Under the pieces are notes generated by a model. The model saw nothing but the letters and a program-made list of their open reading frames with translations. It was not told where the DNA came from and did not search any database. 64,000 nt of DNA from Parabacteroides goldsteinii (GTDB lineage: Bacteria > Bacteroidota > Bacteroidia > Bacteroidales > Tannerellaceae), in contig NZ_JADNBB010000012.1 in NCBI RefSeq assembly GCF_015550595.1, forward strand, positions 31,440 to 95,439, in the 5' to 3' direction. Below, one piece after another: positions 13,329 to 47,638 of the stretch (position 1 is the stretch's first letter; every line of letters begins with the position of its first letter). Position numbers and translations under genes: made by a program.

Positions 13329-14536
13329 AAATTTTATTTTTAACAGACAACTTTCCTCCGGAAGTAAATGCACCCGCTACACGTACTTACGAACATTGCA
13401 AAGAATGGGTTCAACAAGGAGCAGAAGTCACAGTTATCACCTGCGTCCCCAATTTTCCACAAGGAAAAGTATATAAAGGATACAGTAATAAATTATATCA
13501 ACAGGAGATGATGGATGGCATTCATGTTATTCGTGTATGGAGTTATATCACCGCCAACGAAGGATTTCTGAAACGTACACTTGACTACATTAGTTTTTCT
13601 GTATCCGCATTCTTCGCCGGCCTCTTTCAACAGGCTGATATTATCATTGCAACATCCCCTCAATTCTTCACGGCCCTCTCGGGACGCACATTAGCTTTCT
13701 GGAAAAGAAAGCCCTGGATCATGGAGGTACGCGATCTTTGGCCGGAATCGATCAAGACAGTCGGAGCCATGAAAGATAACCCAATCATCCGTTATTTCGA
13801 ATGGGAAGAAAAAAGATGCTACCGGTCGGCAGATAAAGTCGTTGTCGTAACCGACTCCTTCAAAAAGAAGCTGGGAGAAAAAGGTATTACATCTCCTAAG
13901 ATAGAAGTAATAAAGAATGGAGTAGACCTGACCAGGTTTACCCCAGTCGGGAAAGATGAAAAACTGATCGAAGAATTAGACCTGAAAGGGAAAAAGGTGA
14001 TTGGATATATCGGCACACATGGCATGGCGCATAAACTAGATTTTATTCTGCAATGTGCCGCCAACATGCACGGTAAAAATAATTACCATTTCCTTCTGAT
14101 CGGAGCCGGGGCGGAAAAAAAGAACTTACTAAAACTAAAAGAGCAATTAAATATAAAAAATGTAACCATGCTCGATCCCGTCTCCAAACAAGATGTAAAA
14201 CGCTATATATCCATCCTCGATATAGCCTTGATAAACCTGCGTAAATCGGATTTGTTCACCACTGTGATTCCTTCTAAAATATTCGAAAATGCAGGTATGG
14301 AAATTCCTATTCTTATGGGTGTAGATGGAGAAGCCCGCCAGATCATAGAAGCTTATCAGGCCGGATTGTTCTTTGAGCCGGAATCAGAAGAAGATTTTAA
14401 CAGGAAACTTCATTCGCTTCTATCCGACCCAGCCTTATACAAGCAATGTCAAGAAGGATGTCGGAAACTGGCTCACGACTTCGACCGTAAATTACTCGCC
14501 AAACGAATGTTACATATAATAAAAGAAACAATATGA
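13325..14536 (+). CDS. Glycosyltransferase, family 4 (WbuB-like)
   Basis: 403 residues. The opening LFLTDNFPPEVNAPATRTYE and the segment WIMEVRDLWPESI match the WbuB-like subgroup that transfers deoxy-aminosugars such as FucNAc. The C-terminal domain has GYIGTHGMAHKLDF and PSKIFENAGMEIPIL. It overlaps both neighbours by four bases. Compared with the central cassette it is less AT-rich. The precise sugar is not certain. Confidence 0.85.
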   Translation: MKILFLTDNFPPEVNAPATRTYEHCKEWVQQGAEVTVITCVPNFPQGKVYKGYSNKLYQQEMMDGIHVIRVWSYITANEGFLKRTLDYISFSVSAFFAGLFQQADIIIATSPQFFTALSGRTLAFWKRKPWIMEVRDLWPESIKTVGAMKDNPIIRYFEWEEKRCYRSADKVVVVTDSFKKKLGEKGITSPKIEVIKNGVDLTRFTPVGKDEKLIEELDLKGKKVIGYIGTHGMAHKLDFILQCAANMHGKNNYHFLLIGAGAEKKNLLKLKEQLNIKNVTMLDPVSKQDVKRYISILDIALINLRKSDLFTTVIPSKIFENAGMEIPILMGVDGEARQIIEAYQAGLFFEPESEEDFNRKLHSLLSDPALYKQCQEGCRKLAHDFDRKLLAKRMLHIIKETI

Positions 14537-15693
14537 AAAAAATTATGCTAGTCTTCGGTACTCGCCCCGAAGCAATAAAAATGGCTCCTCTGGTAAAGGA
14601 ATTTCAAAAAGATACCGACAATTTTCAAACCATCGTTTGTGTCACCGGACAACATCGTGAAATGCTGGACCAGGTGCTGCATATTTTTGACATCCATCCA
14701 GACTATGACCTGAACATCATGAAGCAAGGGCAGGATCTGTATGATGTAACAGCCCGCGTCCTTATCGGAATGAGAGATGTTCTACAGGAAGCCCGGCCTG
14801 ATCTGGTTCTGGTACATGGCGATACAACCACTTCTACGGCCGCAGCTCTGGCCGCCTTTTATCAACAGATCCCTGTCGGACATATAGAAGCCGGATTGCG
14901 GACTCATAATATATACAGTCCCTGGCCGGAAGAAATGAACCGTCAGATTACCGGGAGAATTGCAACTTATCACTTCTCTCCAACTTCTTTAAGCAAAAAA
15001 AACTTACTGGCGGAAGGGATCGCAGAGGAACGGATCACAGTAACAGGCAATACCGTTATAGATGCTTTGTATCATGTGGTCAGGCAAATAAAAAACAAGG
15101 ACAATTTACGCCAACAACTTACTAATGAACTGGAAAGAGCTGGTTATAAAATAAGTAGACTGGCAGAACAAAGTAACCGGAAATTGGTTTTAATAACAGG
15201 TCATCGCAGGGAAAACTTCGGTAAAGGTTTTATAGCCATGTGTAAAGCCATCAAAACTTTAGCAAAGAAATACCCGAAAGTAGACTTTGTCTATCCGATG
15301 CATCTGAATCCGAACGTTCGGAAACCCATACAGGAAGTATTCGGAGATACGCATCTCCCCAATATGTTCTTTATAGAACCGTTAGAATACCTTCCGTTTG
15401 TCTATCTGATGGAACAATCGACAATCGTCCTGACCGATAGCGGCGGCATCCAGGAAGAGGCTCCCGGATTGGGTAAACCGGTATTGGTTATGCGTGATAC
15501 AACCGAACGCCCGGAGGCGTTAGACGCCGGAACAGTAAAACTGGTAGGAACTGATTTCATAAAAATATTGGATGAAACCTCCCGGTTATTGGAAGATCAG
15601 AATCTGTATGATCAAATGAGTAAAGCCGTTAATCCTTATGGGGATGGACTGGCCTGCCAAAGAATTGTAACACAAATAAGAAAGATTTTATGA
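14533..15693 (+). CDS. wecB: UDP-N-acetylglucosamine 2-epimerase (non-hydrolysing)
   Basis: 386 residues. It interconverts UDP-GlcNAc and UDP-ManNAc in the cytoplasm and feeds the WecC dehydrogenase encoded at 3793. Family motifs are GTRPEAIKMAPL at the N-terminus, VTGQHREMLD, LVHGDTTTSTAAA, GHIEAGLRT, PEEMNRQ and TDSGGIQEEAP. It overlaps both neighbours by four bases. Separating wecB and wecC by about ten genes is unusual but still within one operon. Confidence 0.93.
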   Translation: MKKIMLVFGTRPEAIKMAPLVKEFQKDTDNFQTIVCVTGQHREMLDQVLHIFDIHPDYDLNIMKQGQDLYDVTARVLIGMRDVLQEARPDLVLVHGDTTTSTAAALAAFYQQIPVGHIEAGLRTHNIYSPWPEEMNRQITGRIATYHFSPTSLSKKNLLAEGIAEERITVTGNTVIDALYHVVRQIKNKDNLRQQLTNELERAGYKISRLAEQSNRKLVLITGHRRENFGKGFIAMCKAIKTLAKKYPKVDFVYPMHLNPNVRKPIQEVFGDTHLPNMFFIEPLEYLPFVYLMEQSTIVLTDSGGIQEEAPGLGKPVLVMRDTTERPEALDAGTVKLVGTDFIKILDETSRLLEDQNLYDQMSKAVNPYGDGLACQRIVTQIRKIL

Positions 15694-18080
15694 AAACTTT
15701 GAGCCGATACATTTTCTGTGTTTTATGTCTCTTTATACCAGCTGTCACTTTCGCCCAAATACCGCAAGAGCTATTGGATAAAGCAAAAGCTGCAGGTATG
15801 ACGGAAGAACAGATTCAGCAGGAGATGAGAAAACGCCTGGAACAACAGCATTCTAATCAACCGGTAATTTCTGCAACCGAACATCCGGTTACGGACAGGA
15901 TCACATTCGATACAAAGATACCTCCGCTGGAGTTACAACGCGAAAACAATACTCCGCAGGATAGTAGCAAGAACCTCGTATTCGGTCGTGAAATATTCTC
16001 AAATAAAAACCTGTCTTTCGAGCCGAACCTAAACATGCCTACCCCCAGAAACTATCCACTATCAGCCGGTGACGAATTACAAATCAACGTATGGGGAGAC
16101 TCTGAGTTAAATCTGCAACTAACCGTATCACCCGACGGTACAATTATTATACCGAATGTAGGTCCTGTAGCTATTAGCGGCCTGACCGTCGAACAGGCGG
16201 AAAACCGTATCAAGCAGGAACTGGGAAAGATCATGACAAACCTGGTAGATGGAAGCGAGCCTAACACCTTCGTTTCCGTCGGACTTGGGAAGATACGTAG
16301 CATTAAGGTGAATATCGTAGGTGAAGCCGTTACCCCCGGAACGTATACACTTCCCTCACTGGCCAGCTTATTCAACGCCTTATATGCAGCCGGAGGTGTC
16401 AATGACATCGGTTCCTTACGTAACATACGGGTATATCGCAACAATAAAGAAATTGCCAACCTGGATGTGTACGACTATCTGCTGAAAGGTAAATACGATA
16501 CGAATATCCGCCTGGAAGATAATGATATGATTATCATTGAACCTTACGACCAGTTGGTCAACACCAAAGGCAAAGTAAAACGCAACCGTACATTCGAACT
16601 TCGTAAAGGCGAAACTTTAAGTGATTTATTAAAGATGGCAGGAGGATTTACCGGAGATGCTTTTACCGAAGACGTGACAATCAAACGAAAATCCGGCTCA
16701 CGCTATCAGATTGCCACCATTACGGAAGAAGAGTTCCCAACCTTTATCCTTCATGACGGCGACTCCCTATTGGTAGACTCTGTTATCCCTTTCTATGACA
16801 ACCGGCTCACAATAACCGGAGCCGTATGGCGTCCCGGCGAATATGAGTTAAGTCCGCGAGTACATACCGTCAAACAACTGATCAACCAGGCTGCCGGACT
16901 GAAAGGAGACGAATTTATCGGAAGAGCCCATATCACCCGGTTGAACCCGGATTTTACCAGTACAGTAATAGCTATCGACGTTCAGGACATCCTGAACGGG
17001 AAAGCCCCTGATATTGAATTACAGAAAGAGGACAAACTACATATCCCTTCTCTCTTCGAGCTACGGGAACCTTATACCATCAAAGTAGGCGGAGCGGTTA
17101 ATTATCCAGACACAGTCCTTCCTTTCAGTAAAAATATGACAGTTGAAGATGCGGTTATACTGGCAGGTGGCTTGCAAGAGTCAGCCTCTACAATCAATGT
17201 GGAAGTGGCACGCCGTATAAAAGATCCGACAGCCGACAAAAGCACAAACCAGATATCCAGGATATATACAGTTTCATTGAACAATGATCTGAAACTATCC
17301 TCAAAATCATCCGGATCGCATACGGATACACTCTTCACGCTGGAACCATTCGATGAGGTATTCGTACGCTTCTCCCCTGGTTATGAAAAACAGCAGGTTG
17401 TTAAAGTAAACGGTGAAGTAACTTTCACCGGTGATTATGCATTGCCTACCAAAAACACCCGGCTAAGTAATATCATAGCCCAATCCGGAGGTGTCACCAA
17501 AGATGCCTATGTGAAAGGAGCTAGTTTGAAACGCCAGTTAACACGAGATGAAGTGCGTCAGGTAGAGACTTTATTGCATCTAAGCAACAATAATAAACAA
17601 AGCAAAGACTCCATCGCCCTATCGCTTGCTAACATAAAAGATTATTCGGTCGGCATCGACCTGGAGCAGGCACTGGCACATCCAGGAAGTACACACGACC
17701 TGGTACTCCGCGACGGGGATGCAATCTATATACCTCAGCTACAAAGTACCGTAAAGGTGAGCGGTTCCGTTACCTATCCCAACAGTATCACCTATACAAA
17801 AGGAGCCTCCGTACGCGACTGCCTTTCACAGGCCGGAGGATATAACGACATTGCCCGCAAATACCCGATCGTTATTTATATGAACGGTAAAGTAGCCACT
17901 ACACGTAGGGTCGGCATCTTCTTTAAGCGTTATCCTAAAGTCGAACCGGGATGTGAAATCGTCGTACCTTCTAAAACACAACGAGACAGACGATCGAATC
18001 TGGCTGAAATACTAAGTATAGCAAGTTCGACAACCTCTATGGCCGCCATGGTTACTTCAATAATAAATAATTTAAAATAA
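15690..18080 (+). CDS. Large SLBB-repeat polysaccharide export protein (Wza-like)
   Basis: 796 residues, about twice the length of E. coli Wza. A signal peptide (FCVLCLFIPAVTFAQ) ends near residue 23 and no lipobox cysteine is seen. The Poly_export domain follows at about 118-185 (LSAGDELQINVWGDSEL). I count about six SLBB-like beta-grasp repeats, each with a form of GG or G-G-Y near its end (for example VNIVGEAVTPGTYTLPS and VKVSGSVTYPNSITYTK). A short hydrophobic tail ends it. It would form the outer-membrane and periplasmic channel. The start overlaps wecB by four bases. Confidence 0.9.
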   Translation: MKTLSRYIFCVLCLFIPAVTFAQIPQELLDKAKAAGMTEEQIQQEMRKRLEQQHSNQPVISATEHPVTDRITFDTKIPPLELQRENNTPQDSSKNLVFGREIFSNKNLSFEPNLNMPTPRNYPLSAGDELQINVWGDSELNLQLTVSPDGTIIIPNVGPVAISGLTVEQAENRIKQELGKIMTNLVDGSEPNTFVSVGLGKIRSIKVNIVGEAVTPGTYTLPSLASLFNALYAAGGVNDIGSLRNIRVYRNNKEIANLDVYDYLLKGKYDTNIRLEDNDMIIIEPYDQLVNTKGKVKRNRTFELRKGETLSDLLKMAGGFTGDAFTEDVTIKRKSGSRYQIATITEEEFPTFILHDGDSLLVDSVIPFYDNRLTITGAVWRPGEYELSPRVHTVKQLINQAAGLKGDEFIGRAHITRLNPDFTSTVIAIDVQDILNGKAPDIELQKEDKLHIPSLFELREPYTIKVGGAVNYPDTVLPFSKNMTVEDAVILAGGLQESASTINVEVARRIKDPTADKSTNQISRIYTVSLNNDLKLSSKSSGSHTDTLFTLEPFDEVFVRFSPGYEKQQVVKVNGEVTFTGDYALPTKNTRLSNIIAQSGGVTKDAYVKGASLKRQLTRDEVRQVETLLHLSNNNKQSKDSIALSLANIKDYSVGIDLEQALAHPGSTHDLVLRDGDAIYIPQLQSTVKVSGSVTYPNSITYTKGASVRDCLSQAGGYNDIARKYPIVIYMNGKVATTRRVGIFFKRYPKVEPGCEIVVPSKTQRDRRSNLAEILSIASSTTSMAAMVTSIINNLK

Positions 18081-33434: not shown

Positions 33435-33632
33435 TTAATTTTTTCGGAAAAGTCGAAGCAAATTACCACGGACATAGCCAGGCACCCGGTCGCGATAGTT
33501 TCCACTACGGTCGATATAGAAAGCGATGCAGTCAGCGAGAATATCCAAACGGTTTTTCAGACCGCCACGCAATGAAGCTTCATTGAGAACCTCTGCTTCC
33601 TCACAATCGTAGGCACTCACATGCGATACGAT
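33435..33632 (-). pseudogene. Unrecognised coding remnant
   Basis: A minus-strand frame of about 62-66 codons with coding-like composition (DCEEAEVLNEASLRGGL, YRDRVPGYVRGNLLRLF). It lacks an ATG, opening on GTG or continuing upstream, and directly abuts the truncated recombinase at 33632. It looks like the 3' end of a gene cut off by a rearrangement. No family is recognised. Confidence 0.35.
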
Positions 33633-34114
33633 CAGCTACCGACTTTAAGTACGATATCCACAAAAGGCATACCGCAGGCCATAAAAGAAAACAACGCCAT
33701 ATCGGCAGCCAACTGTTTCTCCGGCTCATCCTTCAAATCCAGCGAAGCGATATTTTTGACAACATTGACCGGTACGGCCCGCTTTTTCGTATCCTCCCGC
33801 TTTAAACAGATACCTGCAAACGGCGACTCCTCCGGCCTCCCTTTCCAACCCAAACAGGCACGGTTATACATCGCACGAAAGTTACTGAGATAGCTGTTCA
33901 CGCTATTCACCCGCAGCCCCTTCCTATGTAGCCAATCCTGAAAACCATGAACCACAGCAGGGGTAATTCCTTTCAAAGAGGGTTCCCGACCGCCATTGAA
34001 GCTTTTAAATTGGTTCCGCACAGCCCGGTACAGGTCGGCCGTGCTTTCATTACCCGCAAAACGTTTCTCCTGCTCCTGTCGCTTCATCTCATAACAAAAC
34101 ACCTTGTTTTTCAT
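33632..34114 (-). pseudogene. Truncated tyrosine recombinase (N-terminal part)
   Basis: 160 codons. The N-terminal core-binding SAM-like domain is intact (LHRKGLRVNSVNSYLSNFRA). The catalytic domain begins (FSFMACGMPFVDIV) and then breaks off into LKVGS and a stop. The K, HxxR, H/W and Tyr motifs are missing. This subgroup is common in Bacteroidales polysaccharide and integrative-element loci. It is one of two broken recombinase genes in this region; its C-terminal half is not in the window. Confidence 0.75.
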
Positions 34115-35300: not shown

Positions 35301-36524
35301 ATGACAACAGATTTCAAGCTGCTTTTCTACATCAAGAAAACAGAAGCAAAAGCCGATGGCACTTGCCCGATTATGGGGCGTATCTCCATCGGAAAAACGA
35401 TGGCACAATTCAGTACCAAACAGACCGCTAATGTATCCCTTTGGGATACACGGGCAAACCGTATGTCAGGTAAAAGCACAACGGCAGTAACCGTTAATCG
35501 AGCGTTGGATAAACTAACGGTTTCGATAAACTCACACTATCAAAAGTTAATTCAACTAAATGGTTCAACTACCGCCAACGATGTAAAGAACGCCTTTCAA
35601 GGTATGGCTTCCGCTCAACATACTTTGGTTAAGTATTATCAGAACCACAATCAAGAGTTTTTCAAGCGTGTTGGTGTTAATCGAGAAAAGAATACGGCAA
35701 TTCAGTATGAAAATTCTCTAAATCATCTGATTCGTTTTATACGAAAGAAATATAACGTGTCGGATATCCCTTTTTCTAAATTGGATTTATCCTTTATTGA
35801 AGCCTGTGATTTTTATCTACGGGTAGAACTCAAACTAAAATCAAATACAATTCTCGGTATCGTTCGCCACATTCGGAAAATGATTAAGTTAGCGATTGCA
35901 GAGGGTATTATCTATCGTGACCCATTTGATGGCTATACCCCTGAACGTCCGAAAGCAGAACAAAAGTATCTTACACGGGAAGAACTCGACCGCTTGATGA
36001 AAACACGCTTAGACCATCCGTCCCGATACCTTACCCGTGATATGTTTCTATTTTCGGTTTTTACTGGCTTGGCGTATCGGGATGTTTGTAACCTTACCCC
36101 GAAACATATAGTAAGAGCCGATGATGGCGTACTATGGATTAGAACAACCCGACAAAAGACTGGAACGCCTTGTGATATTCCGCTATTGGAGTTACCGAAA
36201 CAGATTATTGAGAAATATAAAGGTACTGCCAAAGATGGAAAACTACTCCCGATGCTTAGTTGTGGTAGGCTTAATAAGAATCTAAAAGTAATCGCAAAAC
36301 TCTGCAATATAGACCGTAAGCTCATCTACCATGCCGGGAGACATACGTATGCCACCGAAATTTGTCTGTCGCAAGGTGTTCCAATTGAGAGCGTTAGCCG
36401 AATGTTGGGACATCGTGATTTACGTTCTACACAGATATACGCCAAAATTACGGAACACAAGATAGCTGAAGATATTCAAAGGGCTGAATCTCGTATTGAA
36501 GATAAATTCAAAGTAGTATTATAA
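35301..36524 (+). CDS. Tyrosine integrase 1 (IntDOT-like)
   Basis: 407 residues with an N-terminal arm-binding domain (about 5-90, LLFYIKKTEAKADGTCPIMG), a SAM-like core-binding domain (about 105-205) and a catalytic domain. Visible catalytic elements are HAGRHTYAT (His, Arg), LGH and Tyr in TQIYAKI. The position of the first catalytic Arg holds Ala (FTGLAYRDV); IntDOT likewise lacks this Arg. It would catalyse integration and excision of the element. The second integrase follows after 14 bases, so the pair is co-transcribed. Confidence 0.92.
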   Translation: MTTDFKLLFYIKKTEAKADGTCPIMGRISIGKTMAQFSTKQTANVSLWDTRANRMSGKSTTAVTVNRALDKLTVSINSHYQKLIQLNGSTTANDVKNAFQGMASAQHTLVKYYQNHNQEFFKRVGVNREKNTAIQYENSLNHLIRFIRKKYNVSDIPFSKLDLSFIEACDFYLRVELKLKSNTILGIVRHIRKMIKLAIAEGIIYRDPFDGYTPERPKAEQKYLTREELDRLMKTRLDHPSRYLTRDMFLFSVFTGLAYRDVCNLTPKHIVRADDGVLWIRTTRQKTGTPCDIPLLELPKQIIEKYKGTAKDGKLLPMLSCGRLNKNLKVIAKLCNIDRKLIYHAGRHTYATEICLSQGVPIESVSRMLGHRDLRSTQIYAKITEHKIAEDIQRAESRIEDKFKVVL

Positions 36525-36538
36525 ACGTATAAAACATT

Positions 36539-37828
36539 ATGACAATGAAGATAAAAACAAGAAGTACGTTTGCCGTGCTGTTCTATATTGACAAATCGAA
36601 AGCAAAGAAAAAAAGTAAAGGACTGTGTACCATTACTGGGCGTATCACCATAGATACGGAAATTGCCCGTTTCAGTACGAAGATGGATGTAAATCCCGAA
36701 ATATGGGATGCTCAAACTGGGCGAGTTATTGGCAAAGGTAAAGAAGTTACCAAAATAAACCGCACTCTTGATAATTTAGAACAGGAGATACAGAGCCATT
36801 ATGACCGTTTGGTTTTGGAAGATGGCTATGTTACTGCCGAAGCGGTTAAAAATGCTCTGAATGGTATTGGAAAAAAGGCTACCGGATTACTGGAGCTATT
36901 CAGAGAACACAACGAAGAATTTAAATTTCGGGTGGGTGTAAACCGTGTAAAGGACACCTACGAACATTATCTGCACTCTTACAGGATACTGGAAAATTTC
37001 TTATGGGTAAGATTCCAAATAAAAGATATTGCCCTAAATCAGCTTACCCATAGCTTTATTGATGCTTATGATTTCCATTTGAGGGTAGATAAACGAATGA
37101 ACAGTAATACGGTCTTGAATCATACTATCCCACTCAGGAAAATGATTCGTAGAGCCATTAGCCAAGATATTATCAAGCGTGACCCGTTTGTAAACTATGT
37201 TGCAGAAAAACCGCTGAAACAGCGTAGGCACTTGACGATGGACGAGTTTCAAAAGTTACTCACCACTCCTATAACTGAAAAACATCTTGAAAGGTGTCGG
37301 GATATGTTTCTGTTTGCTTGTTTCAGTGGGATGGCGTATGCCGATGTATGTAACCTGTCCGAAAAGCATATCACACAGGACGATAACGGGGTAATGTGGA
37401 TAAGGATTGAACGGCAGAAAACTAAAAGTGAGTGCAGAATCAGGCTGCTAAATGTCCCCATTCAAATAATGGAGAAGTACAAGCATGAGCGGACGGATGA
37501 TAAGATTTTTAAATTAAAGACGTTGAAAACCATCGATGAAAACCTGAAAATCATTGCTCAAAAGTGCGGTATTGAAAGCCGACTTTGCTATCATATGGGG
37601 AGACACACATACGCCACCCAAGTGTGTATATCACAAGGTGTTCCGATTGAAACGCTCTGCAAAATGATGGGACATCGTTCTGTTCAGACTACTCAAATTT
37701 ACGCCAAAATCACGAACCAAAAGGTGAATGAAGATATGAAAATCTTATCCAGTCGCATTGAAAACCGTTACGAGCTACCGAAAGATGACATGCCAGAGAA
37801 ATTTGCTAGAAATCAGTATTATAAATGA
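36539..37828 (+). CDS. Tyrosine integrase 2 (IntDOT-like)
   Basis: 429 residues with the same domain order as the preceding integrase and clear similarity along its length (FAVLFYIDKSKAKKKSKG, HMGRHTYATQVCISQG, MGHRSVQTTQIYAKIT). The first catalytic Arg is again replaced by Ala (FSGMAYADV). Tandem pairs may act together or divide integration and excision (inference). It ends 54 bases before the SIR2 gene, which has its own promoter. Confidence 0.92.
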   Translation: MTMKIKTRSTFAVLFYIDKSKAKKKSKGLCTITGRITIDTEIARFSTKMDVNPEIWDAQTGRVIGKGKEVTKINRTLDNLEQEIQSHYDRLVLEDGYVTAEAVKNALNGIGKKATGLLELFREHNEEFKFRVGVNRVKDTYEHYLHSYRILENFLWVRFQIKDIALNQLTHSFIDAYDFHLRVDKRMNSNTVLNHTIPLRKMIRRAISQDIIKRDPFVNYVAEKPLKQRRHLTMDEFQKLLTTPITEKHLERCRDMFLFACFSGMAYADVCNLSEKHITQDDNGVMWIRIERQKTKSECRIRLLNVPIQIMEKYKHERTDDKIFKLKTLKTIDENLKIIAQKCGIESRLCYHMGRHTYATQVCISQGVPIETLCKMMGHRSVQTTQIYAKITNQKVNEDMKILSSRIENRYELPKDDMPEKFARNQYYK

Positions 37829-37839
37829 TAAAATACAAT

Positions 37840-37847
37840 TATCTTTG
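37840..37847 (+). promoter_or_regulatory. -7 box of the SIR2 fusion gene
   Basis: TATCTTTG, 35 bases upstream of the ATG. It indicates independent transcription of this cargo gene. Confidence 0.65.
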
Positions 37848-37882: not shown

Positions 37883-39334
37883 ATGAATATAGAGAATGTT
37901 ATAAGTCAAATAAATAATGGCAGTAATTCAAGGGCTGGATTTCACTTTGAATTATTTATTCAAAATTTACTTAAACTACACCTTGAAAAACAAGGTAAGG
38001 ATTTTGTTGTAGAGTATCCCGTTAGTAAATATCGGTTGGATGGTTATTCTAAGGATGGTATAGACCAATATGAAGGACCTGTTGCATTTGAAGTTAAATA
38101 TTTTCGTCACCCTGCTTTGTCAATGATAAAATCTGTTATTGAGCAGATGACACATATATTAAATCTCACAGAAGTAAAATACATAATACTCATTTGTCCT
38201 ACCGCTTCTGATAGGATGAGAGAGATTATCCAAAAAGAAAATCCAAAATTTATTTTATGGGGCACTGCAGAAATAAATGAATTGATTCAAACAAATAAAG
38301 AAAAGGCTGAATATATTGCAAATAGTTTATTTAAATTAGAAATAGAGAAGGAGCTTAAAAAGGATGATAATGATTGGAGAAATTCCAGAGAAGAACTATT
38401 GAACTCTATCAAAAAAGCGTATAAAAAAGGAAATTTTTCGCTTTTATTAGGTGCAGGGGTGTCTTGCAGTGCAGGACTTCCTAACTGGAAAACTTTATTA
38501 AACTCTCTATATGCTAATTTTGTAAATAAAATATTCAATGATGATACTATAGAAAATGATACTATTGAAGCTATTACAAATACGTTTATTAAAATAAATG
38601 AAAGTTCAACATTAGCTGTTGCTCGCTACCTGAAAGCAGGATTATCGCAAAAAGACGATGATGCCCTTTTTTTATCAGCAGTAAAAGAAGCTTTATATAA
38701 TTCACCTAGAATCTCATCTTTATTAATAGAATCAATCACTAGTCTGTGTATACCTAAAAGAAGTGGAGCAAAAGTAAAGTCTATAATTACCTATAATTTT
38801 GACGATTTAATCGAGGAGTCTTTAGACAAAGTAAAACTTGAATATAAGACAATACATAAAGATGAGGAACAGCATGATTCTGACGAATTACCAATTTATC
38901 ATGTACATGGTTTTATTCCCAGCAAAGGTGACATCAATAAAGATGTATCTCTAATTTTTTCAGAAGAAGCATATCATAAAGTTTATTCCGAGCCATATCA
39001 TTGGTCTAATCTTGTTCAACTAGCAACATTGCGAGAGAATAATTGTTTGATGATTGGACTGTCATTGAGTGACCCGAATTTGCGGCGATTGTTAGAAATT
39101 GCTGCTCAGAAGCAATCCAAAAATAGTAAACACTACGCTTTTATTCAGAGATTGAGTAATAATAATTTTATTGACGATACAAGTAAAGTTAAGATTGATG
39201 AGGTATCAGCAAATAAGATATTACGAACGCATCATGTTATTCAAGAGAAAATGATGGAAAGTTTAGGAACAAAAGTAATTTGGTTTGAAGATTACAGTGA
39301 AATCCCTACTTTATTGGACATTATAAGAAAATAA
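37883..39334 (+). CDS. PD-(D/E)xK nuclease-like + SIR2 domain fusion, candidate defence protein
   Basis: 483 residues, no signal or membrane segment. The N-terminal 140 residues look like an Mrr-type restriction-endonuclease fold, with Glu23 (FHFELF), Asp53 (RLDGYSKDGID) and Glu70-x-Lys72 (FEVKYF). From about 185 a SIR2 domain shows GAGVS at 190-194, GLPNW at 198-202, TYNFDDLIE from 303, HVHG with the probable catalytic His342, and GLSLSDPNLRRLL. SIR2 domains in bacterial defence deplete NAD when phage is sensed. I infer abortive-infection defence: the nuclease-like part could sense or cut DNA and SIR2 be the toxic effector. Its 3' end overlaps the opposing HTH gene by 14 bases. Confidence 0.82.
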   Translation: MNIENVISQINNGSNSRAGFHFELFIQNLLKLHLEKQGKDFVVEYPVSKYRLDGYSKDGIDQYEGPVAFEVKYFRHPALSMIKSVIEQMTHILNLTEVKYIILICPTASDRMREIIQKENPKFILWGTAEINELIQTNKEKAEYIANSLFKLEIEKELKKDDNDWRNSREELLNSIKKAYKKGNFSLLLGAGVSCSAGLPNWKTLLNSLYANFVNKIFNDDTIENDTIEAITNTFIKINESSTLAVARYLKAGLSQKDDDALFLSAVKEALYNSPRISSLLIESITSLCIPKRSGAKVKSIITYNFDDLIEESLDKVKLEYKTIHKDEEQHDSDELPIYHVHGFIPSKGDINKDVSLIFSEEAYHKVYSEPYHWSNLVQLATLRENNCLMIGLSLSDPNLRRLLEIAAQKQSKNSKHYAFIQRLSNNNFIDDTSKVKIDEVSANKILRTHHVIQEKMMESLGTKVIWFEDYSEIPTLLDIIRK

Positions 39335-39584
39335 AGATTTCCGACTCCTTATACAGAATTTTTCCTTTCAGTCTGATATACTGTATTTTCCCCGTGTCCC
39401 TCCAATTTTGGAGGGTACGGGAAGAAATTCGGAGCAGTTGGCAGACCTCTCGGTTTGTGAGGTACTTTTCGCCATTGAGGTGTGGAGTACGGTTTTGCAG
39501 GGCTTGTTGAATGGTATCTGAAAGCTCATTCAAAGCCGTAAAGAACGAAACCATTTGCGGAGATTTGTTATCGAGTATATCCAT
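39321..39584 (-). CDS. Excisionase-like helix-turn-helix protein
   Basis: 87 residues. The C-terminal half is a MerR/Xis-type winged helix (HTH_17 style): YLTNREVCQLLRISSRTLQNW followed by a Lys-rich wing. An N-terminal helix (about 10-32) may dimerise. Such small proteins in Bacteroides elements act as excision or directionality factors. It is the last gene of a minus-strand group with two similar partners and overlaps the SIR2 gene tail to tail. Confidence 0.82.
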   Translation of the reverse strand: MDILDNKSPQMVSFFTALNELSDTIQQALQNRTPHLNGEKYLTNREVCQLLRISSRTLQNWRDTGKIQYIRLKGKILYKESEIFIFL

Positions 39585-39597
39585 GATTCATTGATTG

Positions 39598-39882
39598 TTA
39601 GTTTCTCATATAATCGCCCAGTGTGGCGATGGTTAGCATATCCAACCTTTGGCAATAGGAAATCGAAGCTCGTTTTCCATTGAAGTACACAAAATAACCT
39701 TGTTCATCCTCCTGAATCTCATAAGTTACTGGACTTGCCTGTTTGGTGGCTTCATTCATATAGATGATACTTAGCTGGTGGCTCTCAGCGTTCCGATGAA
39801 TCATCACGGTTGGATTCAGGTTAATACTCTCCCAATTCCCGACCAATATATCTAAATCAAAAAGTTCTCTTTCCATAGTCAT
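39598..39882 (-). CDS. DUF3876-like small protein
   Basis: About 94 residues from ATG 39882 (MTMERELFDLDILVGNW). This start overlaps the TAA of the upstream gene by one base, and a further ATG lies two codons in. The open frame extends 20 codons further but inside the upstream gene. The protein is beta-strand-rich (NPTVMIHRN, LSIIYMNE, GYFVYFNGKR). It is a family often found between HTH genes in Bacteroides mobile elements; its function is unknown. Confidence 0.75.
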   Translation of the reverse strand: MTMERELFDLDILVGNWESINLNPTVMIHRNAESHQLSIIYMNEATKQASPVTYEIQEDEQGYFVYFNGKRASISYCQRLDMLTIATLGDYMRN

Positions 39883-40157
39883 TATTTCTTGATTTGTTGC
39901 TGATTGATAAACTGTTCGATGTCGGTAGCTTTGTAATAACACTTACGTCCGATTTGAGAATAGGGTAAAACTCCGGTATCTCGGTAGGATTGCAGAGTAC
40001 GGGGAGAGATTTTAAGCAACTCGCAAACCTGCTTGTTATCTAACCAGTTTTCATTACTCCGGTTCTGTCCGCAAAGTGCGTTCACTTGCTCAGCAAAACC
40101 CTCAAACCTCTGCATCATCTGTTCAAAGGTTCTTTTTTCGATGGCTACAATTTCCAT
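39882..40157 (-). CDS. Excisionase-like helix-turn-helix protein
   Basis: 91 residues with an N-terminal helix and a MerR/Xis-type HTH (WLDNKQVCELLKISPRTLQSY, then GRKCYYKATDIEQFI). It is related to the proteins at 39321 and 42676. It would control excision or mobilization of the element. It leads a three-gene unit; a near-consensus -7 (TTTCTTTG on the minus strand) is seen near 40209. Confidence 0.85.
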   Translation of the reverse strand: MEIVAIEKRTFEQMMQRFEGFAEQVNALCGQNRSNENWLDNKQVCELLKISPRTLQSYRDTGVLPYSQIGRKCYYKATDIEQFINQQQIKK

Positions 40158-40489
40158 ATTGGTGTTGTTTTAGATTGTTATAAACTCCTGTCATTGCAAT
40201 GATTTGCTGCAAAGAAAGAGATAAAATCACTGGTTTCGGAAATTGTGTATGCAGTGGACTGAACTGGCTGCTGTTGGCTTTACCGCATACTCCAACAACA
40301 TATTTTTTCCTTTTTTTCTCTGATAAGCATTAACTATATGGAGAGAATAAATAAGGCAACACTTTTTGGAAATTTACTCTTTTGAGGAACGAAAAAGGAA
40401 GAAATTTCCAAAAACCGCTTGCGGCTCGGTGTTGCCGTTTTATTCTCGGAATATACCTTTGTGTTCAGAGAAAGAAAGGAATTATTAAA
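40158..40489. other. Non-coding region with a long interrupted inverted repeat
   Basis: The gap holds a TCATTGCAATGA palindrome near 40193-40204 and a large inverted repeat (40343-40447). No gene is seen. Confidence 0.6.
40343..40447. repeat. Long interrupted inverted repeat
   Basis: Three blocks pair across a centre: GAGAATAA (40343) with TTATTCTC (40440), GGCAACAC (40355) with GTGTTGCC (40429), and TTTTTGGAAATTT (40363) with AAATTTCCAAAAA (40402). A small CCGCTTGCGG hairpin sits in the right arm. It lies between the HTH and mobilization units and could be a replication or transfer site, a terminator, or a regulatory leader. Confidence 0.7.
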
Positions 40490-40894
40490 CTATTCCATTG
40501 AAAAATAAAATGTTAGATTACTTACAGTTATGAAATAGTTTTCACCATCCACTGAGTAAAAACCTAACTTCTTAGCAAATGCACCGCTTTTAACATTGAC
40601 ACACTCAATGCCGATATGATTAAAACCATACTTTTGGGCTACTTCGGTCAAAAATCTAAGAAAGTGCGTACCGTGCCCTATTCGCTCCTTACTGAATCCC
40701 AATCGGGCAATGATAAGGCAATCAGGTGGAAATAGGCTTTTAACCTTTCTGATACGCAAATACAGGTCTATACGGCTATTTCTTCGGGTGGCAATAACAT
40801 TGTCTACCGTCAAATACACAAGTGACCTGCGGTACTTGAAACGTTCCATCAGGTAGCGGTCTATATCGGCTCCTAGTTCTTCATATTCAATCAT
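40490..40894 (-). CDS. GNAT-family acetyltransferase
   Basis: 134 residues. The acetyl-CoA loop region is seen in RLGFSKERIGHGTHFLRFL and the C-terminal strand and helix in GIECVNVKSGAFAKKLGF, the usual GNAT layout. The substrate is unknown. The start overlaps the relaxase stop by four bases, so it is translated with the mobilization genes; it may be cargo or a modifier. Confidence 0.82.
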   Translation of the reverse strand: MIEYEELGADIDRYLMERFKYRRSLVYLTVDNVIATRRNSRIDLYLRIRKVKSLFPPDCLIIARLGFSKERIGHGTHFLRFLTEVAQKYGFNHIGIECVNVKSGAFAKKLGFYSVDGENYFITVSNLTFYFSME

Positions 40895-41832
40895 CGTCTA
40901 ATCCCTTTCTTCTTTTTCTTTTTGAGTTTCTTTGCTTGTAATTCCTCTGCCAGTGTTGCATCGTAATTATTGCCTTCTCCCAATGAAAAGATAGATAATA
41001 GGGAATTGCCACTACCGTTATTTTGTTGATTGTAAGACTGTTTATTGTCTTCCTTGTTATCAATATGGCAAGAAATCTTGTTTTCATTTTCACCGGATTG
41101 GAATATCTCTTTTTTCTTTTCGCCAGTAAAATATTGTTTTGGCTCTTTCAACTCCTGCTCCTGCATTTTCAGTTTATCGCCCATGCTTCCGTTCTTCATC
41201 GTGTTGGAATACTCAAAGGATTCTGATAATTGACGGTTATAGCCGAACAGCTTATCAAATCCCTGCTCTGCCTGTTGGAACAGATTCACACGGTCAAAGC
41301 CACCTGTTATTACTCCGTTCTTGGTGTTCTTATGATTGGTGAGTGGTGATAGCTTCTTTTTATTGGCTTGGTCTTTCCGGCTCACAATCAAATGGCAGTG
41401 CATATTCAGTTCGTTGTCGGAACGACTACGGTCAAAATGAATCTTGCCGTAAAACTTTATATCTGCTTTGGATAGCCCTTTGTTGAAATTCTTGGCGTAT
41501 TCAGGAATGAATACTTCCCGAATATACCGCTTTATGGCTTCGGCTTTCTCCTGCTCGGTGTTCCCCATTACCCGAAGTTCGTTTTCCGATGGGCTGACAT
41601 GGATAGCGAAAAACTTAGCATCCGTTTTCAGGAGTTGCCCGACATTGCTGTCTATATCCTTAATAACCTTTGATTTGTAGATATTATCATCCGTCAGGTC
41701 GAAAAAGCCATCGGTATAGATTCCTTTCTCCATGCGTTCCAAATCTTCATGCTCGCAATATGAAACTAATTGCCGACTGCTACCTGCATTGTTATATGTT
41801 CCGCCCGATGGTGGGGCAAAATCTATGTGCAT
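40891..41832 (-). CDS. DUF5712-type relaxase / mobilization protein
   Basis: 313 residues. The N-terminal domain has a HUH-like histidine pair in NELNMHCHLIVSRKD (about residue 140) and a candidate Tyr region near 25 (LVSYCEHEDLE). The C-terminal part is low-complexity and ends in a Lys run (KKLKKKKKKGIRR). Proteins of this type pair with BfmA/BtgA proteins in Bacteroides mobilizable elements and would nick oriT. It follows the accessory gene by four bases. Confidence 0.8.
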   Translation of the reverse strand: MHIDFAPPSGGTYNNAGSSRQLVSYCEHEDLERMEKGIYTDGFFDLTDDNIYKSKVIKDIDSNVGQLLKTDAKFFAIHVSPSENELRVMGNTEQEKAEAIKRYIREVFIPEYAKNFNKGLSKADIKFYGKIHFDRSRSDNELNMHCHLIVSRKDQANKKKLSPLTNHKNTKNGVITGGFDRVNLFQQAEQGFDKLFGYNRQLSESFEYSNTMKNGSMGDKLKMQEQELKEPKQYFTGEKKKEIFQSGENENKISCHIDNKEDNKQSYNQQNNGSGNSLLSIFSLGEGNNYDATLAEELQAKKLKKKKKKGIRR

Positions 41833-41836
41833 GGCT

Positions 41837-42421
41837 CTATGTATTTATTAGGTTGGTTATTTCAGCCTTTAAGCTCTCTTTCCTTTTGCTATCCATCACA
41901 CCGCAAGCGGAGAGTTCCGAATAGAGTTGTATCAGTTGAAGCAGTTTTTTATAATCCCGTTGGTGTATCTGATAGAGTGCAGAGAGTTGCTTTCCCTGCT
42001 GGTTGATTACATCGGCGTGCTTGCCGAACTGTTCACTTACCTTTTGTAGTACCTCTGTTTGTTTCCCCTGAGTGGATTCCAATTGAGAAAGAATAAGCTT
42101 TTCCAATGTCTTGCCAATACCATCAAACCGAACTGCAATAGAATTAGCGGTTCGTATCATGGGATTTAGTTGTTCTTCCTCGTAGTGTCGGATAAAGCGG
42201 ATAATATCGTCCTGCCGTTTGTTTATCTTCGCCAGTTCGGATTTTACGGATTCCGGTGCTTCCGATGGGTTGATACACGCTTTATCAATATAGACAAATG
42301 CCAACCGGACTATTTCACCCTTTTTCAGCGAATAGCGTTTGCAGAGTTTGTCTATCAATTTTCCCGTCTGACGGTCTATGCCGATAGTGGTAAGCGTGGA
42401 TATATTACTGGTCTTATCCAT
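41837..42421 (-). CDS. BfmA/BtgA-family mobilization accessory protein
   Basis: 194 residues from ATG 42421 (MDKTSNISTLTTIGID). The open frame runs 20 codons further, but the family begins here. A ribbon-helix-helix-like N-terminus (DKLCKRYSLKKGEIVRLAFVYIDK) would bind oriT DNA. Long helices with coiled-coil character follow (about 70-180). It would form the relaxosome with the next protein. The intergenic region just upstream holds nested inverted repeats. Confidence 0.85.
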   Translation of the reverse strand: MDKTSNISTLTTIGIDRQTGKLIDKLCKRYSLKKGEIVRLAFVYIDKACINPSEAPESVKSELAKINKRQDDIIRFIRHYEEEQLNPMIRTANSIAVRFDGIGKTLEKLILSQLESTQGKQTEVLQKVSEQFGKHADVINQQGKQLSALYQIHQRDYKKLLQLIQLYSELSACGVMDSKRKESLKAEITNLINT

Positions 42422-42522
42422 GATTATAAGTTTTTTATAAAGAAAACGACATTCATTCAGTTGATTATAAGCAAAATACATTTTCGACCTATAATCACTG
42501 TTATAAACGATTACGAATGTAA

Positions 42523-42660
42523 CCCATTAAAGCCGAAGGCTTTGCCCCGCAGGGCAAGAGGGAAGAACAGGACTTGTCCAGTTCCCTCTTGCTTCATTTA
42601 GCGAAACGAGCCGAGCCACAGGGCGAGGCGGTTTCTGCTAAATGGGGAGTGGTGGCACTT
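42523..42660. other. Candidate oriT
   Basis: This region lies directly upstream of the mobilization genes. It holds an 11-bp perfect inverted repeat GCAAGAGGGAA (42554-42564) / TTCCCTCTTGC (42582-42592), then ATTTAGC (42596-42602) / GCTAAAT (42637-42643), and a small GCCCCGCAGGGC hairpin. Position and nested repeats fit an origin of transfer, but the nick site is not identified. Confidence 0.45.
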
Positions 42661-42675
42661 CATCAGGTGATAACA

Positions 42676-43026
42676 TTACCCACCCTGTTTTGCTTCGGTT
42701 TGCGTATCGAGTTGATTTTCCTTTTTGAACCGCTCGTAGGTCTTGCAATCGGCATTTTCCTGTACAAATGCACGAATGTCGGATGCTCGGTAGTAGGTTT
42801 TATGACTTATCGTAAAGTAAGGAAGCTTGCCACTTGCCCGATACCGTTGCAAGGTTCGGAAAGATACTTTCAGTAGAAACGCCAAATCCTGATTATCCAA
42901 CAACTTGTCGTTGGGGTCTAATACGTTGTCGGTATTGATTAGCGATTTCAGGTCTTGCCCGATTTCGGAGAGTTTCTTCGACAGTCGTTCCATCCACTTG
43001 TCGAAGTTTTCATTGTCTATATACAT
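42676..43026 (-). CDS. Helix-turn-helix regulator of mobilization
   Basis: 116 residues with an N-terminal helical segment (about 5-45) and a MerR/Xis-type HTH (LLDNQDLAFLLKVSFRTLQR, then KTYYRASDIRAFV). A hydrophilic tail ends it. It is a third relative of the HTH genes at 39321 and 39882. It is probably transcribed ahead of the mobilization genes, though a 250-base gap with the oriT candidate separates them. Confidence 0.83.
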   Translation of the reverse strand: MYIDNENFDKWMERLSKKLSEIGQDLKSLINTDNVLDPNDKLLDNQDLAFLLKVSFRTLQRYRASGKLPYFTISHKTYYRASDIRAFVQENADCKTYERFKKENQLDTQTEAKQGG

Positions 43027-43181
43027 TTTGCTTCACTTTTAAATTAAACATTAAGATTACCAATCGATTGATGAAGCAAAGTTCGGCAAATGGGTGCAAA
43101 TAAGTTAGGGGAATACCAGTGGTACTCCCCCATAAATAGCTGCTATCTCACTGATAAACAGAATAGAATATTCTGATGTTT

Positions 43182-46761: not shown

Positions 46762-46826
46762 ATTTTGATTTTACATTTTGCAAAACATTAATAATCAGGA
46801 ATATATTTCAAGATGTTATAGTAGTG

Positions 46827-46831
46827 GCAAA
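46827..46831 (+). other. Right attachment core (GCAAA)
   Basis: Junction between the element and the N-terminal part of the split recombinase gene; on the minus strand the host side reads ATACATTTGC. Confidence 0.75.
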
Positions 46832-47638
46832 TGTATGCCTGGCAAGATGAGGGGTGATTCGTTTTGATAATCCGGCTTTTTTCACATAAGACTTTATCAT
46901 AAGCCTGACTGATTGTGTAGATACACGTTGCCCTAGCCTATTAATAAAGATGGGTAAACTATACCCGATCTCTTGTTTATAGCTTTGATAGTAGGTTCTG
47001 ATTATCGAAAGCGTTTCAGACTGACAAATCTGTATGATACGCTCTTTGCTTCCTTTTCCAAAGACTCTTATTACCCCATTTCTAAGATTTATGTCTTCAT
47101 AATTAAGATTACAAACCTCGGAAACCCTCATTCCGATTGAAAATAAAACCTCTACAATCGCAATATTACGAGTTTGTGCCTTATACATGTAATTATTTGT
47201 GTGTTGATTATTAATCAGTCCCTTATACATAACGGTCAATATTTTTTTCACCTCATCAAGACTCATCACAGACGGTAACAAACTTGGTTCTTTTAAGCGA
47301 ACTTTTATTTTACGAAAGGGATTGATGTAATCATCATCTTCATATTAAAGAAAATTAAGCATCGCTTTCAGAGAAGCGACCTTTCGTTTTACTGTTTTAA
47401 GTTTTAGATGATAAATTTCCTGTAAGTAATTTTTCAAAGTATCTTTAGACATACATTTGAAATCAAGCTCATCTTCCGTATCTTTTATGTATAGAGCAAA
47501 TTGCCTTAGGTCAGTTCCATAAGCTTTTAATGTTTTTGAACTCAGATTCTTTTCAAACTGACAATGAAAAAGAAATTTCCCTATCACTTCATACACACTC
47601 ACCTTTTCCTCTGGCTTGCTTAAATTACTGGTATCCAT
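46827..47638 (-). pseudogene. Split XerC/D-like tyrosine recombinase, N-terminal part with nonsense codon
   Basis: The gene starts at ATG 47638. An N-terminal SAM-like domain (SSKTLKAYGTDLRQFALYI) is followed by an in-frame TAA at 47345-47347. The same frame then continues (YEDDDYINPFRKIKVRLK) into the catalytic domain with Arg in GMRVSEVCNL, Lys in VFGKGSKER and His/Arg in PHLARHTFA, where the mobile element interrupts it. Past the junction the frame reads into element DNA and stops at 46808. Its C-terminus is at 34803-34976. The complete protein would be about 330 residues. Two independent lesions make it inactive. Confidence 0.88.

Follow-up and report, generated by a model that had tools for sequence, protein, structure and literature searches.

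In many of the abortive-infection systems built on SIR2 and TIR domains, the sensor of infection is a separate entity: it may be the product of another gene, a messenger nucleotide, or a sizeable domain of helical or STAND type. Here we describe a gene at positions 37883-39334 (forward strand) of a 64,000-nucleotide stretch of Parabacteroides goldsteinii DNA (contig NZ_JADNBB010000012.1, positions 31,440 to 95,439), called the window below, whose product of 483 amino acids (aa) joins a predicted PD-(D/E)xK restriction-endonuclease fold to a SIR2 domain of the antiphage NADase type. We think it rather likely that this is a one-gene system of abortive infection, borne by a mobilizable element as cargo, with the SIR2 domain as the effector and the PD-(D/E)xK-fold domain as the trigger; for this scheme we infer hydrolysis of nicotinamide adenine dinucleotide (NAD), DNA as the signal, coupling of the two domains and protection against phage.

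Several described systems come close to this protein. In type I Thoeris, ThsA carries its SLOG sensor at the C-terminus and acts together with ThsB (according to the portion of PMC12948488 that treats it), whereas the present protein finishes with its SIR2 domain, has a nuclease fold in front of it and gives no SLOG match; since Thoeris combines a ThsA bearing a SLOG or macro module with a TIR partner, and there is no TIR gene among the ten neighbouring open reading frames (ORFs) between 35301 and 43898 that were scanned with Pfam and NCBIfam, Thoeris was ruled out. Kongming, in which the KomC chains are bare SIR2 proteins of 264 residues with KomA and KomB as partners, was excluded for want of either partner among these ten ORFs, as were SIR2-HerA for want of a HerA ATPase and Lamassu LmuA for want of LmuB, the window gene lying outside any Lamassu operon and only one of ten other loci (L128) having its copy beside LmuB. 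DSR1 and DSR2 were rejected on size, as they have about 1000 aa or more with a large C-terminal sensor, and the Dsr1 equivalog scores 18.5 bits versus a cut-off of 1400. Avs4 and other nuclease-headed STAND proteins differ in that the present protein has no STAND NTPase or repeat sensor, its nuclease fold being joined instead to a second effector-type domain, and the lack of an NTPase domain removed Avs from consideration. The modification-dependent restriction enzymes AspBHI and MspJI carry a modified-base recognition domain, which is absent here, SIR2 standing in its place.

The short Argonautes offer the nearest precedent. Their SIR2-APAZ, TIR-APAZ and Mrr/DUF4365-APAZ proteins use SIR2, TIR and PD-(D/E)xK domains as effectors, mostly as alternatives to one another, and some TIR-APAZ proteins are extended at the N-terminus by a PD-(D/E)xK domain in which catalytic residues are present; within what the relevant sections of PMC2743648 and PMC6299218 cover, these last are the closest known case of a nuclease fold and an NADase-type domain in one protein. 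In those partners, however, the domains serve an Argonaute through APAZ, whereas here the second domain is SIR2, with neither APAZ nor an Argonaute neighbour; SPARSA was thus ruled out, there being no pAgo among the ten neighbouring ORFs and no residues after SIR2 to form an APAZ. More generally, no NCBIfam equivalog reaches its cut-off for the protein, and the SIR2 systems listed in the sections of a defence-domain review (PMC10952713) do not include this architecture. In the open-licence literature of PubMed Central (PMC), as far as its retrieved text extends and with most subscription papers, supplements and bioRxiv falling outside it, no named one-gene nuclease-SIR2 system was found, in keeping with the preliminary description of the locus, which had not recognised the architecture either. 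Public listings give the family only as 'SIR2 family protein', 'SIR2-like domain-containing protein' or 'hypothetical protein'. A search of defence-system model collections, proposed in the same description, answered for one half of the protein, as the best PADLOC 2023 stretches cover the SIR2 part alone and leave the N-terminal part uncovered. The combination of nuclease fold and SIR2 domain is real, widespread and apparently unnamed.

The reading frame itself is secure. It begins with ATG and runs for 483 codons without interruption, a length that would arise by chance with a probability of about 1e-19 at the local base composition. Homologues at E <= 1e-3 number 774 among 7999 scored candidates, ranging from Bacteroidota to Gammaproteobacteria, and 119 of the best 120 span at least 95% of the query. 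The motifs noted in the preliminary description, E23, D53, E70-x-K72, GAGVS, TYNFDDLIE, HVHG (with H342) and GLSLSDPN, stand at the residues it had named.

The SIR2 domain starts at about residue 163-165 and extends to the last residue, 483 (residues 165-483, 38375-39331, forward strand). It matches Pfam SIR2_2 at E 1.7e-20, and a fold search with the full model placed ThsA and KomC, both antiphage NADases, as its closest structures, with the SIR2 domains of Avs5 and DSR2 also among the matches. N305 (38795-38797) and H342 (38906-38908), which we take to be the catalytic asparagine and histidine as in ThsA, are invariant in all 241 aligned sequences of the two sets described below (121 of 121 and 120 of 120), so the NAD site is not degenerate in homologues. 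There are four cysteines in the 483 residues, and the C-x2-C zinc pair of deacetylase sirtuins is absent. In its fold, its Asn and His and its lack of a zinc module, the domain belongs with the SIR2_2, ThsA/KomC-like superfamily of antiphage NADases, as first proposed from its motifs.

The N-terminal domain was modelled separately, because the full-model fold search probed the SIR2 part only. Residues 1-160 (37883-38362, forward strand) were predicted with high confidence to adopt a PD-(D/E)xK restriction-endonuclease fold, whose nearest structures are Avs4, AF1548, AspBHI and MspJI; VIA ranks the nuclease domain of Avs4 first, in a structure whose title describes it as bound to a phage portal protein. 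The putative site comprises E23 (codon at 37949-37951) and D53 with E70-x-K72 (codons D53 to K72 at 38039-38098, forward strand), and to judge from the aligned residues the motif is beyond chance. By modelled fold and by its E...D...(D/E)xK site, the domain may thus be placed in the PD-(D/E)xK superfamily. The N-terminus is therefore nuclease-like, as had been suggested, but not "like Mrr": no Pfam Mrr model matches the protein up to E 0.1, and the Mrr family was ruled out, Mrr_N appearing only in three distant SIR2 relatives (L008, L010 and L012).

Conservation of the two active sites was compared in a query-like set of 121 sequences (the query and the best 120 of its 774 homologues) and a sister set, the best 120 of 1497 homologues found with L126, a copy beside P2-like phage genes; each set holds the best matches of one query, with intermediates outside both samples. 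In the query-like set, 104 of 121 sequences have the whole nuclease site, E23-D53-(E/D)70-K72. Residue 23 is E in 115, D53 and an acidic residue 70 (E or D) are each found in 120, while residue 72 is K in 106, R in 7 and Q, F, M or a gap in the remaining 8; one member, P0045, is a partial, chimeric match. The sister set mostly keeps the acids (E23 in 113, D53 in 114 and E70 in 110 of 120), but has the catalytic lysine in just 4 of 120, mostly with V, T, I, S or A instead and with 3 gaps. In a FastTree phylogeny, the 120 sister sequences form one clade with support 1.0, a clean split that is partly a product of sampling because the sets are the best 120 of 774 and of 1497 with the intermediates unsampled. 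This clade includes L126 and L127 (the same sequences as P0127 and P0198) and is marked by a basic residue conserved at a new site, K78 of P0127 (87% K/R versus 4%). Furthermore, the N-terminal domain evolves faster than SIR2, with a mean identity of 39% in the 3141 pairs whose SIR2 domains are 60-70% identical. As a separate observation, the query-type copy at L128:3249-4760, which lies directly behind Lamassu genes and shares 80% identity with P0107 from the query-like sequences, carries N at the position of D53.

The N-terminal domain is also exchangeable. Used alone as a query in a word-based search, it found three matches, of 195, 97 and 127 aa, and in more distant SIR2 relatives the SIR2 core is preceded by a different N-terminus, namely Mrr_N in L008, L010 and L012, another E-x-K domain in L006 and L009, and an IF-2-like part in the flavobacterial L013, L018 and L021 (L013 and L021 judged by eye). 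Such exchange fits a sensor or trigger role. The flavobacterial proteins combine a SIR2 effector with a translation-factor-like head; residues 1-60 of L018 match a reading frame of 1029 aa in the genome that contains the window (E 6e-5, 37% over 49 residues), which was read by eye as infB beside nusA. In L010 (2867-11074, from a Roseburia metagenome-assembled genome), the Mrr_N-SIR2 variant stands directly after a type II restriction-modification (R-M) cluster of two cytosine methyltransferases and a restriction enzyme, and another relative with a different N-terminus, L133:9911-11119, lies between the tail-completion and baseplate genes of a P2-like prophage.

These features suggest the following course of events. 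The N-terminal PD-(D/E)xK-fold domain would act as the trigger, engaging DNA or a DNA-like sign of infection and passing the signal directly to the SIR2 domain (residues 163-483). The latter, as effector, would be switched on, probably by higher-order assembly, and would then hydrolyse NAD+ and halt the infected cell; activation by assembly is proposed by analogy with ThsA, KomC and Avs5, for which the structure titles and portions of PMC12948488 and PMC12700824 point to it. A SIR2 site that is constant and always intact suits an NAD-depleting effector, and a fast-changing, exchangeable fold of a nucleic-acid-handling type suits a trigger. Since the lysine is present in 4 of 120 sister sequences while the SIR2 site is constant, the nuclease-fold part looks like a trigger for which cutting is not essential. 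In the query branch, nicking may contribute to sensing or deal a second blow, but cutting is probably unneeded across the family; in the sister clade it is probably absent or relies on another residue. Of the two roles first offered for this domain, to "sense or cut" invading DNA, the requirement for cutting is accordingly the doubtful one. A bolder and somewhat doubtful extension is that a restriction-enzyme fold has here become a tripwire, sensing invading DNA by an end, a modification or a form of replication and answering with the destruction of NAD, with or without cutting, and that the family records a passage from restriction to DNA-sensing abortive infection. One branch still has the full cutting site, and in the branch found beside P2-like phage genes the lysine has been exchanged and the acids kept.

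The gene sits in what is recognisably a Bacteroides-type mobilizable element of the MobB/BfmA kind, in which a relaxase, a mobilization accessory gene and a tyrosine recombinase occur together. Two tandem tyrosine recombinases on the forward strand (35301-36524 and 36539-37828, each with PF00589, PF13102 and PF17293) precede it, the second ending at 37828 and the SIR2 gene starting at 37883, just after the integrases as originally stated. It is followed on the reverse strand by an HTH_17 helix-turn-helix (HTH) protein, HTHa (39321-39584, PF12728), whose 3′ end overlaps that of the convergent SIR2 gene by 14 bases (39321-39334); by a DUF3876 protein and a second HTH_17 protein (39598-40157, from the domain scan); by a MobB-type relaxase with a DUF5712 domain (40891-41832; PF18976 at 7e-69, 233.1 against a cut-off of 25; the MobB equivalog NF041495 at 4.9e-42, below cut-off at 144.6 against 200); by a BfmA/BtgA-type mobilization protein (41837-42481; NF041200 at 2.5e-11, above cut-off); and by a further HTH_17 protein (42676-43026). 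Over the mobilization half (40289-43088), the DNA is 85.7% identical to that of a relative element, L117, and this homology stops just beyond the last HTH gene. The SIR2 gene has a G+C content of 31%, versus 40-41% in the surrounding integrase and mobilization genes.

The place that the gene occupies is variable. Eight tandem-recombinase loci (L110-L117) lack it, and in L110-L114 the recombinase-HTH interval measures 0.35-1.6 kb, with other small ORFs in L110 and L112-L114 and none above 55 aa in L111. In L072, whose protein is 68% identical, the gene has on one side 34 residues left over from the second recombinase and on the other an HTH remnant, and an HTHa remnant follows the SIR2 gene in L019 as well. 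Because L110-L117 are without the gene and L072 keeps the flanking remnants, we conclude that the gene has moved with the element and that the slot is variable, which bears out its early description as cargo. The L019 copy (L019:10001-10904) is frame-broken and without its N-terminal part, and has 78% DNA identity to window 38487-39422; it lies on a betaproteobacterial contig (Oxalobacter paraformigenes) in a patch of 43-48% G+C versus 51-62% before it, and to judge by these sequences it is an apparent cross-phylum passage of the element. At the ends of the element, comparison of 33.0-35.3 kb with 42.9-47.8 kb gave no exact direct repeat of at least 15 bases. Two reverse-strand pieces at 46808-47281 and 47345-47638 look by eye like a XerC/D-like recombinase gene that has been split; together with a short fragment resembling a recombinase at 33632-34114 (reverse strand, also by eye), they are probably remains of other integration events.

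Among 123 genomes from the family of the window, a full-length copy was found only in its own. Such copies occur in 3 of 393 genomes of its order and 2 of 395 of its phylum (own included in both) and, among 293 genomes from the order to which G783 belongs, in G783 alone; these genome sets overlap. Used as a DNA query, the Klebsiella gene is present in at least 3 of 5426 Escherichia coli genomes; of 72,556 plasmid records, a single one matches the query over 80% or more of its length, and a single weak partial match was found among 50,697 phage records. This patchy spread across phyla points to horizontal transfer.

The gene had also been credited with its own -7 box. A TAnnTTTG box (TATCTTTG) does lie at 37840-37847 on the forward strand, 43 nt 5′ of the ATG, where about 0.03 such boxes would be expected in the 54-nt gap from their frequency in the window, and L072 has a comparable box at -47. 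In promoters of this type, a TTTG is found at -33, at a usual spacing from the -7 box. No TTTG was seen by eye at that spacing from the gene's box and the combined -33/-7 pattern has no match at the gene, so the box is a half-promoter at most. The promoter and terminator scan returned 13 sigma-70-like sites versus 9.2 (standard deviation 3.0) in shuffles, and no terminator.

Neighbourhoods were surveyed in ten independent full-length loci besides the window, with uneven coverage: by PADLOC with five neighbours in L038 and three in L128, by PHROGs only with three neighbours each in L126 and L127, and by annotation in L119. Recognised defence systems lie within about 9 kb in four of the ten loci. 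A type II methyltransferase, a restriction endonuclease and Vsr are near the gene in Bacteroides clarus (L002); a CBASS cyclase (1.8e-142) and Cap15 effector (5.9e-91) accompany it in Acinetobacter (L005), beside TniQ/TnsB-type genes; and SngC (1.1e-278) and SngB (9.7e-187) are found 5.6-9 kb off in Klebsiella (L038), the same island in E. coli (L119) having annotated type I R-M and AbiEii genes and a frameshifted ATP-binding gene. In L128, LmuA (7.6e-130) and LmuB (4.9e-234) end 75 bp upstream of the gene. L126 and L127 adjoin terminase, portal or head genes that we read as P2-like from the gene set, and L072 sits in element remnants. Among the proteins encoded up to 6 kb from the gene, in the ten loci and the window alike, none was found in more than two loci, the pairs being an HTH protein (window/L072), recombinases (window/L128), phage genes (L126/L127) and one further case (L126/L128). 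There is hence no constant partner gene in the 11 loci, which agrees with the stand-alone architecture first assumed. The recombinase on the L128 contig, which is viral, is a tyrosine recombinase distantly like that of the window.

Six case regions were further matched with six control regions from the same genomes (PADLOC at E <= 1e-20, ORFs of at least 110 aa, the SIR2 gene removed and one ORF above 1200 aa left out of each set). The case flanks held 82 proteins and matched 44 families, including CBASS, type II R-M and PDC-S70; the control flanks held 78 proteins and matched 11, including LmuB (2.4e-72) with LmuA (8.1e-30), AbiTii (3 proteins), SoFic, PDC-S68 and RmuC. The control Lamassu-like pair was placed by eye in L120, at about 14518-18055, on the same B. 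clarus contig as L002; tblastn with the LmuA and LmuB of L128 found nothing in the control regions.

Some of these results weigh against a trigger-and-effector protein of phage defence. Whole systems were found in 2 of 6 case loci versus 1 of 6 control loci, and for this reason we do not claim enrichment in defence islands; the neighbourhood survey suggested in the preliminary description thus supports proximity to defence systems in four of ten loci, but not enrichment. Three of the ten (L003, L004 and L073) have no clear defence neighbour, L004 giving a weak DzbB match at 6.2e-10. Moreover, the catalytic lysine of the sister clade may have migrated rather than been lost, a possibility raised by the conserved basic position K78 of P0127, and the full site in 104 of 121 query-branch sequences suggests, as far as residue conservation can tell, that cutting matters there.

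The last point leads to a different division of labour, in which the N-terminal endonuclease would degrade DNA and SIR2 deplete NAD, both being activated by a different phage cue, for instance a structural protein. The complete E-D-(E/D)-K site speaks for such a dual effector, as do the Avs4 nuclease domain, bound to a portal protein, as best VIA match and the appearance of Avs5 and DSR2 among the SIR2 structure matches, DSR2 being activated by phage tail tube protein according to a section of PMC10952713. We nevertheless regard it as unlikely, given that no separate sensor domain is visible in the 483 residues and that the lysine is present in only 4 of 120 sequences of the sister clade. Still less probable is that the mobile element uses the same trigger-plus-NADase route to exclude plasmids or other elements, and not phage: its slot beside the integrase would suit this, and TIR-APAZ or SIR2-APAZ short Argonautes act against mobile elements in the account given by part of PMC10474274, but relatives of the gene adjoin P2-like phage genes and lie near phage-defence systems. 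Finally, SIR2 folds also perform deacetylation and ADP-ribosylation (in the portion of PMC9503650 on these activities), yet a deacetylase or ADP-ribosyltransferase regulating the element or acting in DNA repair is hardly credible in view of the missing C-x2-C pair, the antiphage NADases as nearest structures, and the element's evident lack of need for the gene in L110-L117. A DNA-triggered NADase remains our preferred reading; it retains from the preliminary description the nuclease-like fold, the SIR2 type, the one-gene architecture and the cargo slot, while giving up Mrr and holding obligatory DNA cutting doubtful.

If a restriction-type fold does gate an NADase directly, this protein would be among the simplest DNA-triggered suicide proteins. 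At 483 aa, it is small enough for structure work and mutational dissection, and the lysine exchange in the sister clade provides a natural comparison between a possibly cutting and a probably non-cutting version, within a family that is widespread and found both on a mobilizable element and beside phage genes.
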